Source: Pectobacterium polaris (GTDB lineage: Bacteria > Pseudomonadota > Gammaproteobacteria > Enterobacterales > Enterobacteriaceae). Taken from it: a stretch of 64,000 nucleotides of DNA. The stretch spans positions 992,001 to 1,056,000 of the forward strand of contig NZ_CP017481.1 in assembly GCF_002307355.1 (NCBI RefSeq). Reading direction: 5' to 3'. Positions 26,574-34,054 of the stretch are shown piece after piece (positions within the stretch are counted from its first letter, which is position 1; every line of letters starts with the position of its first letter). The notes under the pieces were generated by a model that saw only the letters and a program-made list of their open reading frames with translations, was not told the DNA's origin and ran no database searches. A program made the translations under genes and the position numbers.

Positions 26574-26900
26574 ATGAACGCACCCACTACTGCACCAACA
26601 TTACTAAAGCTCGACGCCATTAGCGAAGCTATCGACGAGCTCCGGCACGAACTCGCGCGTAGCGATGCCTCCAGCAAAGAGGTTATGCTGGAAGATCACA
26701 TTCATTCGCTGGATGTATTTGGCATTCAGCTAAATACGCGACGTAAAGCGTTGGGCATCGAACTCACTACGCTAGAGCTACAGACAGGTGTATCCATCTC
26801 CACGTTAAAACGTTTATTCAACGATCCCTCTCAGGTGAAGTTTTCCACGGTTTATAGCGTTTGTTCCGCGTTAGGGATAAAGCTATGCGCCGTCAAGTAA
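26574..26900 (+). CDS. hipB: HipB-like antitoxin/repressor (XRE family)
   Basis: DNA-binding protein of 108 residues. An N-terminal helical stretch (1-45) precedes an XRE-type helix-turn-helix at about 50-100 (FGIQLNTRRKALGIELTTLE, then TGVSISTLKRLFNDPSQVKF). In hipBST operons HipB binds the operator and augments antitoxin function of HipS. It is the first gene of a three-gene operon, its 3' end overlapping the next start. The Shine-Dalgarno is weak. Confidence 0.85.
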   Translation: MNAPTTAPTLLKLDAISEAIDELRHELARSDASSKEVMLEDHIHSLDVFGIQLNTRRKALGIELTTLELQTGVSISTLKRLFNDPSQVKFSTVYSVCSALGIKLCAVK

Positions 26901-27199
26901 AGGTCTATCTTTACGGTGTCCACATCGGCCAGTTAAGTCAGGACGATGAAGGTTATCTGTTTGAATATAAAAAGTCCTACATCGGCCCGCCATTATCATT
27001 GAGCCTACCGATACAGACCGGCACATTTCACAGCAAAACATTACCGCCCTACTTTGCCTCGTTAGCTCCCGAAGGCTGGCTGCGGCGACAGTACAGCCAG
27101 CTTCAGCATCTGGATGAGAAGGATTTATTTGGCATCCTCATTCAAAATGGTAAGAACCTGATCGGTGCCGTGCAACTGATCGCGGAGGATAAGTCATGA
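26885..27199 (+). CDS. hipS: HipS-like antitoxin (free-standing HipA N-terminal subdomain)
   Basis: A 104-residue protein equivalent to the N-terminal subdomain 1 of HipA (VKVYLYGVHIGQLSQDDEGY, FEYKKSYIGPPLSLSLPIQ, LPPYFASLAPEGWLRRQYS). In two-gene hipBA systems this domain is fused to the kinase. As a separate small protein it defines the three-component hipBST class, where HipS is the neutralising antitoxin of HipT. ATG 26885 has AGGG eight bases upstream and overlaps the hipB stop by 16 bases. An in-frame alternative at 26861 would overlap more and looks like coding read-through. The stop overlaps hipT (ATGA). Confidence 0.87.
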   Translation: MRRQVKVYLYGVHIGQLSQDDEGYLFEYKKSYIGPPLSLSLPIQTGTFHSKTLPPYFASLAPEGWLRRQYSQLQHLDEKDLFGILIQNGKNLIGAVQLIAEDKS

Positions 27200-28236
27200 C
27201 AAGATGTCGAATTTTGCTGACACCGCTGACACACGAAGAAGAAATCGCCACAGGCTATAGCCGTAAAGGGTTAAAGCATCTGACGGGATCAACGCATGCC
27301 TCCTCGACCTTACGTTTCACCCGCCAGCAATTTATGCACGACCTGCCACAAGCACAGAAAGGCATGAGCATCTCTGGCTATCAGCCCAAAATTCAGATGG
27401 TATTAGAAGAACGGGCGTTTACCGTCGTTGATCATCAAGGGCTGTGCATCCTCAAGCCTTCTCCGATTGAATTTCCCCATTTGGCAGAAAACGAACACGC
27501 CACGATGACATTAATGGCACGCCTGGGATTTGCCGTTCCACCACACGGGTTACTCCGTTTTAAACCGGAGCAGGCTGATGACGAACCTGAGTTTGCTTTC
27601 GTTATTAAGCGCTTCGACCGCGACGAAAAAACGGGTCACCCTATCCATCAGGAACAGTTGGACGGTGCGATGGGGGTCGGTGAAAAATTCGGTAAAATAC
27701 ACACGGATGGCAGACAATACGTCAGTTATGAGCGGTTGGCTTCATTCCTTAGCAAACACGTTAATGACAATATCGTCTTCAAAATAGATCTGTTTCGCCG
27801 TATCGCTTACGCCTACATGCTGGGTAACAACGACATGCACCTGCGTAATTTTGGTTTGATACATTCGCGCTCAGGTTCGTTAATGCTGGCTCCCATTTAT
27901 GATTTTGTTTCCGTCGCCCCCTATCCCACCTATTTTTCTTCCTGCTTCATGGCATTGCCGCTGCTGATTCAAGAAGAGGGGGATGAAGCACTCGCGCCAG
28001 GATTTGAAACCGCATACGGAGAATACCTTGGTATGGATTTCATTCTATTCGGGCAACGTATCGGGCTGAGTGAAAACCTGACCAAAAAACTACTGGCAGA
28101 CTTTCTCAAAGAAGCTGAATGTGTTGAATCAACCTATCGGGATTCCTTTATGCCTGCGGATGCTATTGAGACAACGCTGCGGTGCTATCGACACCGCCTG
28201 AAGCTTATGAGCATTCTCGATGCAGAACGGATTTAG
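27196..28236 (+). CDS. hipT: HipT-like serine/threonine kinase toxin
   Basis: HipA-fold kinase of 346 residues lacking the N-terminal subdomain, which is encoded separately by the preceding gene. The Gly-rich-loop region carries S58-I-S60 in KGMSISGYQPKI, the autophosphorylation motif type of HipT. Lys87 (CILKPSP) is the ATP lysine. The catalytic loop is N211-N-D213-x-H-x-x-N218, and the metal-binding Asp236 lies in APIYDFVS. All residues needed for activity are present. Known HipT phosphorylates tryptophanyl-tRNA synthetase and halts translation; whether the target is the same here is inference. Confidence 0.9.
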   Translation: MTRCRILLTPLTHEEEIATGYSRKGLKHLTGSTHASSTLRFTRQQFMHDLPQAQKGMSISGYQPKIQMVLEERAFTVVDHQGLCILKPSPIEFPHLAENEHATMTLMARLGFAVPPHGLLRFKPEQADDEPEFAFVIKRFDRDEKTGHPIHQEQLDGAMGVGEKFGKIHTDGRQYVSYERLASFLSKHVNDNIVFKIDLFRRIAYAYMLGNNDMHLRNFGLIHSRSGSLMLAPIYDFVSVAPYPTYFSSCFMALPLLIQEEGDEALAPGFETAYGEYLGMDFILFGQRIGLSENLTKKLLADFLKEAECVESTYRDSFMPADAIETTLRCYRHRLKLMSILDAERI

Positions 28237-29970: not shown

Positions 29971-30876
29971 TTAGCGATGCGACCAGTACGCCATAAAGTT
30001 GATCGTCTCTTTATCGAGGTGCCGCTCGTCGAGCAGATAGCGGCGCAGCCGTTTGATGGCGGAAGACTCTCCCGCCGCCCACGCGTAAAACGGCCGATGC
30101 GCCGTTGCCCGTTCCCACAGTAGCTCGTCTTCTGGCGTTTCCTGTGCGATCTCATTCCGGTTGGTACAAGCACTGGCGGGAATCTTCACGTCCTGTTGCA
30201 CCGCAGTCAGCAGGCGTTCGCCCCATACTGTGCTGCCCGTTTCCTCACGCGGCAGCCAGTGAATCTGCGCAAACGGGAAGTCGCTTGATGTCACGCAGTC
30301 AGCCACTTTTGGTACTTCAAAAAAAGCCTGCACCGACGGCGGAGAAGGCTGGGTAGCCAGTTGCTCAAGAATTCCCATTGCCGCTGGCAGCGCCGTTTCA
30401 TCCGCAATCAGCAGAACCTGCTCAACGCCCTCGTGCGGTGCCCATTCATAGCCGCCGCTGTCGCCATCGGCCTCTGCATTGGGCGCGACAATCTGTAGCG
30501 CATCACCCGGCTTAGCATGGCCCGCCCAGCTTGAAGCAGGTCCGCTATCACCGTGCAGCACAAAATCGATTGTTGCCTGCTGTGACTCGCGTGAGACGGA
30601 ACGCAGCGTATAGGTGCGCAAAATTGGACGACGCTCACGCGGCAGCGCCAGATAGTCCTGATACCAGGTATCGCTCACGGCCATTGGGGTCAGTTCCCCG
30701 CTTTCACTAGCGAGCAGCAGCTTGATGCGCTGATCCGGCGCGTCCAGTTTCATCTGGCGCACTTCCGGGCCGATGAACACACAGCGAACCAATGAAGGCG
30801 AGAGTAACGTCTTACTCTCTAAGCGTAAGTTGAACAGCCGATAGGCGGAAGACGTTGTACGGGTAGCTAAAGACAT
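29971..30876 (-). CDS. Siderophore-interacting protein (ferric-siderophore reductase, ViuB/YqjH type)
   Basis: Cytoplasmic FAD/NADPH-type reductase of 301 residues. The FAD-binding domain contains RPILRTYTLRSV (RxYS/T-like motif) and IDFVLHGDSGPASSWA. The SIP C-terminal domain has LIADETALPAAMGILE and ends in INFMAYWSHR. It would release iron from imported ferric siderophores. ATG 30876 (MSLATRTT) was chosen; the open frame to 31074 crosses the Fur box and is leader. A strong Fur box about 80 bp upstream supports iron repression. About 40 extra residues (TNRNEIAQETPEDE) sit between the nucleotide domain and the C-terminus. Confidence 0.88.
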   Translation of the reverse strand: MSLATRTTSSAYRLFNLRLESKTLLSPSLVRCVFIGPEVRQMKLDAPDQRIKLLLASESGELTPMAVSDTWYQDYLALPRERRPILRTYTLRSVSRESQQATIDFVLHGDSGPASSWAGHAKPGDALQIVAPNAEADGDSGGYEWAPHEGVEQVLLIADETALPAAMGILEQLATQPSPPSVQAFFEVPKVADCVTSSDFPFAQIHWLPREETGSTVWGERLLTAVQQDVKIPASACTNRNEIAQETPEDELLWERATAHRPFYAWAAGESSAIKRLRRYLLDERHLDKETINFMAYWSHR

Positions 30877-30957
30877 AGTGAGAAAACCGCATGTTTTGTA
30901 AGGAAAAATCAGTCCACGGGATAAAACCCATTCACCGCAACTTACCATAAACAAAAC

Positions 30958-30976
30958 ACTAACGATAATCATTATC
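30958..30976 (-). promoter_or_regulatory. Fur box of the siderophore-interacting gene
   Basis: The 19-bp stretch contains the perfect palindrome GATAATCATTATC and matches the Fur consensus at 16 of 19 positions by eye. Confidence 0.85.
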
Positions 30977-31155
30977 ACCATTCGGATGAATGCCGTGATA
31001 TACGCGGTATTGAGTGTCGCGACACGCTGTATCACCGAGTGATTTCGATGGCACCATTCCCCGTCCAGTATCACAGCTGTTCTCTTATAGCCCTGTAATT
31101 TTTAGGTTAGAATATTCAGGACTGTATTGTTTTACCAAAAAAGGATAAGTGATTC

Positions 31156-33927
31156 ATGGATGAGCGGAAGTTCTTGGTTCTGACTAGAAGCAAGCAAAGT
31201 GAATTCAAAAATACGACAAAAGAAGTCATTGATGTCACGCCAGCAGGCGACAAAATGCGTGTCACTTTCCGGAATGGTAATCCTTTCCCCTATAACAGAA
31301 AAAATGTTCGTTTTTTTACAAACCCAGAAGCTATTAGCACTGAAGATTACATTATTACATGCAAAAAAAGATCAATAAAAAAATGGGATGAAGCATTTAT
31401 TTTTGATGAACAATATTTCGTTTTATTCGACAATGGACATAGCGAAGTTCTCCCCCTCGCTGATGTTGAAATAATCCCCAATATCGCGCACAAAAAAGAC
31501 ACAAAGCACCTGATCAACTATTACCGGCATATCGCCAAATTTTTAAAAGACTCGGATATTTCTGAATCAGCACACTACTATTATGAAAAAAAACTCAATC
31601 ATATAAGAGACGACTCCGTACTGAGCCACTATATTAACCCATCTAAGTTATCAACAGAACATTGCTCATTACCCCTCTTTCCTTTTGGGATAAACCCATC
31701 ACAGCGTGAAGCCGTCATTAAGGGGCTAACATCAAAAATAAGCATTATTCAAGGCCCGCCCGGCACAGGAAAAACACAGACCATACTCAATATAATTGCC
31801 AATCTGGTCTACCAAAATAAGACCATTGCTGTAGTTTCAGGAAACAATGAAGCAACAAAAAATATCTATGATAAATTAGAAGAAAAAGGCTTCCCATTTA
31901 TTTCAGCCAGTCTTGGTAGCAAAGAATTACAGAATGAATTTTTTGCTAAAGAAAATAATATCCCTGACCTTTCTCATTGGGTGCTTTCTGAAAATGACTT
32001 GATAAAAAACAGAGAGACTATTGCCAACACTGACACATTGATTTCCGAGTTACTTGATCTGCAAAATGAGCAGGCCAGAGTCAGAGAATTAATCAGCAGG
32101 CTTGATATCGAAAGAAAATATTTTGATAAGTATTTCTCTGCCGACCCGATAAACCCGTCTAAGTGGTCTTTTGGCAACCGTTGGTCAACACCCAATCTGA
32201 TGAAATTTATGGCTGAGGTGGAGCACTTCTCAGAAAAAGAAACGCTGTCGTGGTCACGCAAGTTTACCTGGCTATTAAAATATGGAATTTACAAATTCAA
32301 GGATCTCAACGTCCTTTCTGGTGAATTGTTCAAAGGACTCATTTCTGAGTATTATCGAAGAAGAAGACAAGAGCTTGCAGAAAAAAAACGGACAATAGAT
32401 AAAAAATTAGGGCAGCATAATTTCGATGAACAGCTAAAGCAGTATACTAATTGTTCGATGGCGCTATTCAGGCACCACATTTTCTCAACCCATCACCACA
32501 TGCATCACGTTGAATTCACTTACAGATCGTATAAAAATCTTTTCGCCGACTTTGTTAAGCGTTTTCCTGTTGTCCTGAGCACAACCGATTCCATCATTAA
32601 CAATAAGGGTGATAATGAACTCTTTGACTATCTCATTGTTGATGAAGCGTCGCAAGTCAACCTGCTCACTGGCGTGCTAGCTATGGCCAGCGCCAAAAAT
32701 ATGATTGTCGTCGGTGACTTGCAACAAATCCCCCACATTCCAAACAAGTCGCTCATCGCTGCTCAGCCCGATATTGACACGCAATTTGATATCCCTACTA
32801 ATTATAGTTATCGAACAGAAAGCCTCTTGTCATCTGTAAACAAAGTGTTCGATAAAAACGCGCCCTCCACGCTGCTCAAAGAGCATTATCGTTGCCACCC
32901 TCGGATCATCGACTTCTGTAATCAAAAATATTACAACGGCCAGCTTGTCATCATGACGCATTCAGACACTGAGCCATTTAAGATTTTCAAAACAACGCCA
33001 GGCAATCACACCCGCAAAGCACCTGGCGGCAAAAGCCAAATCAACTCTCGCGAGTTGGACGTGATTAAACAAGAAGTACTTGAAGCCGATTTAGCCAATG
33101 TAGGTCCGGAAAAAATCGGTATCGTTACGCCTTATCGTGCACAGGTTGAGCAAGCTAACGGTCTTATTGATGGAAAAAAGATAAAAATAGATACCGCACA
33201 CAAGTTTCAAGGACGTGAAAAAGACATCATCATATATAGCCCCACCGCGAACTGGGCAGATACATTTAATGACAGTCCGAATTTAATTAATGTCGCCGTA
33301 TCGCGAGCAAAAGAACAATTCATTATGGTAATGTCAGCTAATTTATTCAAACAGCAAGGTACGAATATCGGTGATTTAATACGGCACATAGAATACCAAT
33401 CTATGTCACCTAACATCTTTGAAAGTAAAATAGTCTCAATATTCGACTGTTTGTATAACGAGTTTTCACCTATTTTACAAGAATTTAAAATCAGGATGAA
33501 AATTATATCTCAGTTTGATTCTGAAAATCTAATGGCTACGCTATTGGAAAAAATCCTTGCTGATAAGATGTTTACCTCATTCATGTACAAAAATAATTAT
33601 ACGCTAGGTTTGCTGATAAAGGATTTCAGCATACTCACTGAGGCTGAGCAGCAGTTTGCCCAGAATCCGAATAGCCACATAGATTTCCTGATTTGCAACA
33701 AACTGGATAAACTCCCTGTGCTTGCAATAGAAGTCGATGGCCACCAGACCCACGCCCTCGATCCTAAGCAATTAGCGCGGGACGCGAAGAAAAACAGTAT
33801 TCTATTTAAGTTAGGAATCCCATTATTGCGCTTTCCAACAACAGGAAGCGAGGAAGAGAAAAAAATTCGTAAAGCACTAGAAGAGATTATCGCGTTCATA
33901 CCGGAATCTGATACGGAAAAACATTAG
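31156..33927 (+). CDS. Superfamily 1 helicase fused to a DUF2726-like nuclease domain
   Basis: Protein of 923 residues. Residues 1-115 form a beta-rich N-terminal region without recognised homology. The Upf1/COG1112-type helicase core has Walker A GPPGTGKT (200-207), Walker B VDEAS (D496, E497), motif III VVGDLQQIP, and the late motifs TPYRAQVEQ, AHKFQGREKD and NVAVSRAKEQF. The C-terminus carries a PD-(D/E)xK-like nuclease: D843 (HIDFLI), E859-V-D861 (LAIEVDGHQTH), then RDAKKNSILFKLGIPLLRF, resembling DUF2726. A helical insert (about 290-470) interrupts the core. Composition is visibly more AT-rich than the neighbours, suggesting transfer. It is monocistronic with AAGGAT before the start. Function is inferred as nucleic-acid processing, probably phage defence. 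Confidence 0.85.
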   Translation: MDERKFLVLTRSKQSEFKNTTKEVIDVTPAGDKMRVTFRNGNPFPYNRKNVRFFTNPEAISTEDYIITCKKRSIKKWDEAFIFDEQYFVLFDNGHSEVLPLADVEIIPNIAHKKDTKHLINYYRHIAKFLKDSDISESAHYYYEKKLNHIRDDSVLSHYINPSKLSTEHCSLPLFPFGINPSQREAVIKGLTSKISIIQGPPGTGKTQTILNIIANLVYQNKTIAVVSGNNEATKNIYDKLEEKGFPFISASLGSKELQNEFFAKENNIPDLSHWVLSENDLIKNRETIANTDTLISELLDLQNEQARVRELISRLDIERKYFDKYFSADPINPSKWSFGNRWSTPNLMKFMAEVEHFSEKETLSWSRKFTWLLKYGIYKFKDLNVLSGELFKGLISEYYRRRRQELAEKKRTIDKKLGQHNFDEQLKQYTNCSMALFRHHIFSTHHHMHHVEFTYRSYKNLFADFVKRFPVVLSTTDSIINNKGDNELFDYLIVDEASQVNLLTGVLAMASAKNMIVVGDLQQIPHIPNKSLIAAQPDIDTQFDIPTNYSYRTESLLSSVNKVFDKNAPSTLLKEHYRCHPRIIDFCNQKYYNGQLVIMTHSDTEPFKIFKTTPGNHTRKAPGGKSQINSRELDVIKQEVLEADLANVGPEKIGIVTPYRAQVEQANGLIDGKKIKIDTAHKFQGREKDIIIYSPTANWADTFNDSPNLINVAVSRAKEQFIMVMSANLFKQQGTNIGDLIRHIEYQSMSPNIFESKIVSIFDCLYNEFSPILQEFKIRMKIISQFDSENLMATLLEKILADKMFTSFMYKNNYTLGLLIKDFSILTEAEQQFAQNPNSHIDFLICNKLDKLPVLAIEVDGHQTHALDPKQLARDAKKNSILFKLGIPLLRFPTTGSEEEKKIRKALEEIIAFIPESDTEKH

Positions 33928-34026: not shown

Positions 34027-34054
34027 ATCAGGCCAGAGTGATTTCTGGCCTGAT
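34027..34054. terminator. gor / helicase bidirectional terminator
   Basis: Perfect 11-bp inverted repeat ATCAGGCCAGA/TCTGGCCTGAT with a six-base loop between convergent genes. Confidence 0.75.

Follow-up and report, generated by a model that had tools for sequence, protein, structure and literature searches.

The stretch of DNA analysed here (the window) comprises 64,000 nucleotides of the Pectobacterium polaris chromosome (NZ_CP017481.1, positions 992,001 to 1,056,000) and contains an open reading frame (ORF) of 923 amino acids (aa), with an ATG start and exact coordinates from the ORF list (Table 1), which encodes a superfamily 1 (SF1) helicase joined to a nuclease-like DUF2726 domain. The gene lies between a siderophore-interacting protein (SIP) gene, recognised by the Pfam families FAD_binding_9 and SIP, and gor, which was named by eye. 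Both flanking genes are read from the opposite strand, hence the helicase gene is by position the sole member of its transcription unit, as had been described in a first-pass annotation made from the sequence. The helicase and gor genes converge, and an inverted repeat in the space that separates them (AGGCCAGA/TCTGGCCT) is a candidate terminator, although a terminator scan gave no report of it at 34030..34051. The gene is also clearly AT-rich, its G+C content of 0.39 being the lowest among the listed ORFs of at least 90 aa in the window, and its G+C content at third codon positions (GC3) is 0.42, compared with 0.60-0.70 in four core genes, SIP and gor among them, and 0.50-0.56 in three other genes measured.

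All four helicase motifs named in the first-pass annotation (GPPGTGKT, DEAS, QGREKD and VAVSRAKEQ) are present in the protein, and AAA_11 and AAA_12 score above the Pfam cut-off. The C-terminal assignment held as well, as DUF2726 is matched over residues 830-910 (E 6.6e-15; 55.4 bits versus a gathering score of 24.7), and the predicted catalytic residues D843, E859 and D861 are present and do not vary across a 106-sequence alignment. In a set of 12 C-terminal sequences, DUF2726 is matched by all 12 at E<=0.01, MTES_1575 by 10 and DUF559 by 4, the window protein itself being below the cut-offs of the latter two families. A structure model of the whole protein is confident (mean predicted local distance difference test score, pLDDT, 89.7), and residues 112-760 of it form a UPF1/IGHMBP2-type SF1 helicase, for which fold comparison gives IGHMBP2, UPF1 and Sen1, helicases that work on RNA, as best matches and supports membership of the UPF1 family. 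The comparison covered the best 50 entries, in which most aligned residues fall within 112-760, so that neither end of the protein was probed; no nuclease of known fold is found at the C-terminus among these matches, whose whole-model alignments span 112-760, and a match to 3hrl is weak (E 0.37). A non-nuclease fold at the C-terminus had been named beforehand as an outcome that would speak against the proposal; judging from sequence and model, the region looks like a restriction endonuclease (REase)-type domain. The claim that the N-terminal 115 residues match nothing stands for Pfam, where no family is found at E<=1 over residues 1-170, but not for structure, as the model folds residues 1-109 into a tandem pair of SH3-like barrels. 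As to the 1B (OB-like) barrel that UPF1-like helicases have between their stalk helices, the barrels in the model precede the first stalk-like helix, and the UPF1-family fold alignments begin at residue ~112.

Table 1. Features of the helicase-DUF2726 gene and its surroundings (window positions; residue numbers refer to the 923-aa protein)
Feature	Position	Strand	Basis
End of block common to 11 aligned gaps (includes ataatcattat, ahead of SIP); variable from roughly this point up to the gor stop codon	30950..30979	+	Left-edge alignment
Coding sequence, SF1 helicase / DUF2726 protein, 923 aa	31156..33927	+	ORF; Pfam; 106-sequence alignment
First SH3-like small beta-barrel, ~residues 5-60	31168..31335	+	Model
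Second SH3-like small beta-barrel, ~residues 62-109	31339..31482	+	Model
Stalk-like helices 114-160, running into the motor	31495..31635	+	Model; UPF1-family alignments start at ~residue 112
Walker A GPPGTGKT, residues 200-207	31753..31776	+	K206 invariant in 106/106 and 14/14
Long helical arm inserted in RecA1, residues 279-446	31990..32493	+	Helices 279-327, 345-358, 366-376, 389-420 and 423-446 in model
Motif II DEAS, residues 496-499	32641..32652	+	D496, E497 invariant in 106- and 14-sequence alignments
RecA2 half with QGREKD (685-690) and VAVSRAKEQ (713-721), ~residues 561-748	32836..33399	+	AAA_12; fold match to ~residue 760
DUF2726 nuclease-like domain, ~residues 785-913	33508..33894	+	Pfam; helix/strand order in model
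D843, predicted catalytic	33682..33684	+	Invariant in 106/106 and 14/14
E859-V-D861, predicted catalytic	33730..33738	+	E859, D861 invariant in 106/106 and 14/14
8-bp inverted repeat AGGCCAGA/TCTGGCCT in the helicase-gor interval (genes convergent), candidate terminator	34030..34051	.	Read by eye

Comparison of the SIP-gor locus across the genus, which had been set beforehand as a test of the proposal, was made with 25 genomes including that of the window (G000), and places the gene in the gap in two of them (G000 and G011), not in all. The protein finds matches in 10 of the 25, which are full-length only in these two (90 percent identity) and cover part of the helicase in the rest, while gor was found in all 25 and SIP in 23, with no SIP match in G002 and G014. 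Partial helicase matches also occur at another place in G000 (L017 and L021; G000:C1:4580765-4585713). The most frequent content of the gap is a pair of genes of 83 and 95 aa (12/25; similar to one another by eye). The pair from G004, which was the one scanned, encodes an antitoxin resembling Phd/YefM, with a score under the Pfam cut-off, and a ParE toxin. A three-gene cassette occupies the gap in five genomes, where the copy scanned (G018) consists of a Mor-type activator and two proteins lacking a Pfam match, and single genomes carry an aerobactin-type operon with a major facilitator superfamily (MFS) gene (G003), or a set with a short-chain dehydrogenase/reductase (SDR), a phosphoesterase and an MFS gene (G019). 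The gap is near-empty in G024 (241 bp), and in G020 (L044) 13 kb separate SIP and gor, mostly haemagglutinin-like fragments by eye, with gor matched in several pieces. When 11 gaps were aligned at their edge, the sequence was common up to ~30979 and divergent after it; the shared block, with its ataatcattat before SIP, is presumably Fur-box-like. The common edge followed by differing sequence, together with the many types of cargo, therefore identifies SIP-gor as a site of variable content, of which the helicase gene is one cargo. In Pseudomonas aeruginosa, defence hotspots between conserved genes present a comparable arrangement, but the cargo of SIP-gor is not mainly defensive (PMC10250203). 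A housekeeping role was rejected on account of the patchy presence.

Beyond the genus, a protein search scored 7999 candidates, 7760 of them at E<=1e-3; many of these must be general SF1 helicases, while the best 120 are mostly full-length DUF2726 fusions and, among named relatives, those from Pectobacterium rank highest. The family is rare once strict thresholds are applied, being present in 8/394 genomes of the order, 1/369 of the class and 2/398 of the phylum (G000 counted in each), and, with the Alicyclobacillus protein P0096 as query, in 13/398 genomes of the phylum of that organism (its own genome counted). Members occur in Gammaproteobacteria, Bacillota and Bacteroidota. Some match is found in 430 of 72,556 plasmid records, four of which cover 80 percent of the query. 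Partial matches occur in 11 of 50,697 phage records, none with 80 percent query cover; the best (H41) reaches 59 percent (residues 370-912) and another (H43) covers residues 1-242 up to the end of the record, both being unannotated faecal 'Bacteriophage sp.' records. A scan of IMG/VR returned at least six partial helicase matches and excludes little. A quick, midpoint-rooted tree of 37 rows groups the window protein with Pectobacterium and Xenorhabdus proteins. The proteins of Escherichia coli and of some other Enterobacterales fall into a distant clade of this tree, a sign that the family may have entered the order more than once. In E. coli, a relative of the L047 copy, itself on a plasmid record, was found in 643 of 5426 complete genomes (637 over 80 percent of its length), in every case on the chromosome and with a median of one copy. 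In many of the rows shown for E. coli O157:H7 the relative is annotated as two features, which suggests a broken gene in that lineage.

The two genus copies (G000 and G011) differ with a dN (non-synonymous divergence) of 0.047 and a dS (synonymous divergence) of 0.250, hence a dN/dS of 0.19 overall, while dS in gor is 0.290. As the dS of the helicase gene is near that of gor, a recent acquisition was rejected, and the gene has probably been in place since the lineages split, or has moved with its flanks. The same values bear on whether the gene is a passive or selfish passenger of a variable-content site that brings no benefit to the host, a reading to which the variety of cargo at SIP-gor and the two-piece annotation of the O157:H7 relative lend themselves; the low dN/dS and the retention of all predicted active residues in both copies speak against it, and we regard it as very improbable.

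With the split at residue 115 taken from the boundary drawn in the first-pass annotation, dN/dS between the two genus copies is 0.53 in residues 1-115 versus 0.06-0.21 over five parts of residues 116-923, and differences between them fall on 38 of 115 aligned residues in the N-terminus and on 57 of 808 in the remainder (Fisher p 2.4e-13). Across the whole family, variability is about equal in the helical insert and in the N-terminus, yet the insert is 90 percent identical between the two genus copies, hence the N-terminal divergence is more than the poor conservation of a region. A swap-in of a foreign N-terminus was set aside, since dS there (0.301) is like that of the rest and change of the protein is the simpler explanation. 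The comparison with P0001 shows the same tendency (0.76 in the N-terminus versus 0.87-0.97 elsewhere), while those with P0002, P0003 and more distant relatives are mixed, other parts being equally variable. This pattern suggests diversifying selection on the N-terminus. The earlier idea that residues 1-115 may sense the trigger gains only indirect support, from the rapid divergence of the protein sequence there between the two genus copies, at synonymous sites that diverge at an ordinary rate.

The expectation that relatives would cluster in defence islands is supported by their neighbourhoods. ORFs within 6 kb of 20 relatives (L001-L005, L059-L073) were collected, and the 193 proteins of at least 100 aa were scanned against PADLOC at E<=1e-20 in two lists (136 and 57 proteins), which returned 146 and 89 models, versus 10 and 8 for 227 control ORFs from twenty 14-kb stretches; these counts refer to models rather than proteins, as one protein can match several, and the two test lists overlap. 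Nineteen of the control stretches are from the relatives' own genomes, on the contigs that carry the relatives and no closer to them than 17 kb, and one (L093, in G011) replaces G1298; all were put at round coordinates rather than at random. The matches listed for the relatives include JetA2/B2/C2, JetC1/D1, HamA, RT_UG17, SngA/B/C, OloA, PsyrT, DpdF, type I specificity and type III restriction proteins, some being look-alikes, such as a MutY-like protein on REase_II, while the controls gave, for example, RtcR, IscS-like DndA/SspA, viperin-like and mads_3 matches. Ten neighbours chosen for their defensive look were also scanned singly, with strong matches for RT_UG17 (7.5e-163) and a cytosine methylase (7.9e-95) at L003, a type I REase at L004 (6.2e-38), JetC2 at L005, SngA at L070 (3.9e-122) and mREase_IV at L072 (9.6e-200), weaker or generic ones at L063, L065 and L071, and no match for the protein from L061; by eye, no defence neighbour is evident at L059, L060 and L064. 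The relatives sit among defence genes far more than the control stretches do. Elsewhere, L056 has a trio of TerB, ATP-binding and DEAD helicase genes ~4 kb away, which from the names we take to be Shango, and in four E. coli chromosomes inspected the relative lies in regions rich in transposase pieces (two), in an integrase island adjoining tRNA-Phe, and beside type VI secretion and transposase genes.

Two arrangements among the relatives are recorded in their own right. In two Colwellia genomes (L001:6863-9985 and L002:6870-9986) the same three genes precede the relative, and the third, an Mrr_cat endonuclease gene by the scan of the L001 copy, ends ~15 bp upstream of it, which would allow a possible operon. 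At L066:7678-8193, a free-standing DUF2726 protein is encoded ~100 bp upstream of the fusion relative.

The neighbourhoods also bear on a role as an accessory enzyme of DNA repair or recombination, encoded by an optional gene. Dna2 likewise unites helicase and nuclease in one protein; the patchy presence, the enrichment of relatives beside defence genes and the fast-changing N-terminus fit such a role poorly, and we consider it improbable. The reading favoured here is that of a single-gene anti-phage (or anti-mobile-element) defence protein, to which we assign a probability of about two in three, because of its domain order, the UPF1-family motor model, the invariant motor and nuclease-like residues, the patchy presence and the defence-rich neighbourhoods of many relatives. 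The candidate phage-defence role of the first-pass annotation is thus supported. Three observations weigh on the other side, namely that the window locus itself is no defence island, that the SIP-gor site also takes up siderophore and transporter cargo, and that the insertion looks old (dS 0.25 versus 0.29 in gor).

In a defence protein of this kind, the tandem SH3-like barrels would give specificity by recognising a product of the invader or a nucleic-acid complex, or by docking on it, and this recognition would let the SF1B motor load and move on single-stranded nucleic acid; by family, SF1B motors run 5'-3'. The putative Vsr-like nuclease at the C-terminus, positioned next to the motor, would then cut the invader nucleic acid or, if less specific, that of the cell itself in an abortive response. 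Nhi, in which one gene encodes both nuclease and helicase and whose activity is linked to the single-stranded DNA-binding protein (SSB) of phages, is a model for such an action (PMC12904381). DNA is slightly preferred as the substrate, because DUF2726 has been classed as a REase-fold DNase (PMC3710099). A branch of the defence reading, in which the UPF1-like motor would act on transcripts and the Vsr-like domain would cut RNA, draws on the best fold matches being RNA-working helicases, and on the UPF1-like helicase fused to a Vsr-like nuclease that is predicted to target RNA in CoCoNuT type III-B (PMC11090510); we hold it to be rather unlikely. Equally tentative, and doubtful in its full form, is the proposal that the protein may represent a family of one-protein immunity that crosses phyla and has not been described before. 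Its paired, fast-diversifying SH3-like barrels would recognise a product of the invader and activate a motor of UPF1 type, and the motor would transport a Vsr-like nuclease along single strands of phage nucleic acid, perhaps of RNA. More generally, sensor, motor and cutter united in one gene would help to show how such proteins distinguish phage from self.

Among the other genes of the window, three overlapping small genes (26574-28236) lie 3 kb from the helicase gene and encode a 108-aa helix-turn-helix-type protein (by eye), a 112-aa Couple_hipA and a 346-aa HipA_C protein (Pfam), that is, a split HipA, in what we take to resemble the HipB-HipS-HipT order. The true start of the SIP ORF (29971-31074) is probably ~57-61 codons further in, as most relatives align only from there and longer matches contain stops.

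Helicase-nuclease fusions are a recurring design in defence, and the window protein shares features with several of them. No NCBIfam cut-off is met by it, and the PADLOC 2.0.0 models match its helicase part alone, no matched stretch reaching the nuclease; surveys built on these collections would hence overlook the family, including the relative in the E. coli genomes. The best PADLOC match is MkoC of Mokosh type II (E 4.9e-63), through the helicase core (best stretch residues 487-744), whereas Mokosh proteins are described with a phospholipase D (PLD)-like domain (PMC10952713), and the window protein has DUF2726 and no PLD at E<=1. For Nhi-like systems the same survey lists NERD, which Pfam does not find in the window protein at E<=1 (PMC10952713). 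CnuH of CoCoNuT type III-B joins a UPF1-like SF1 helicase directly to a Vsr-like PD-(D/E)xK nuclease and has helices inserted downstream of Walker A, an arrangement that the window protein shares if its DUF2726 domain is taken as Vsr-like, but the partners of CnuH are McrB/McrC homologues, whereas the neighbours of the window protein are SIP and gor (PMC11090510). Some defence helicases of the YprA type, for example in ARMADA, also end in a Vsr-type nuclease, although YprA belongs to a different helicase family (PMC12458937). By eye, no McrBC-like protein was recognised among the window ORFs. Hhe (the DUF4011 domain anti-phage protein, NF042953) likewise consists of one large protein built on an SF1 helicase core (local match E 1.2e-22), and it carries a Vsr-like nuclease; the window protein differs in having no DUF4011 (Pfam E<=1), in scoring 79.3 bits versus a cut-off of 2000, and in being about half the length of the Hhe model (1797 positions) with SH3-like barrels at its N-terminus. 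Partial helicase-core matches to ProA and PLuB (NCBIfam) reach 124 and 97.3 bits versus cut-offs of 1500 and 999, and the cut-off of the IGHMBP2 family (TIGR00376) is likewise missed (145.2 versus 348.9 bits). The window protein was not assigned to Mokosh, Hhe, CoCoNuT III-B or Nhi, since for each of them at least one tested defining feature, be it a domain or a neighbour, is lacking. No report of this architecture as a single gene was found in the openly licensed literature, which is a weak negative. The window protein is, by this comparison, a compact stand-alone variant of the helicase-nuclease design, in which a UPF1-like helicase is combined with a DUF2726 nuclease-like domain and N-terminal SH3-like barrels.
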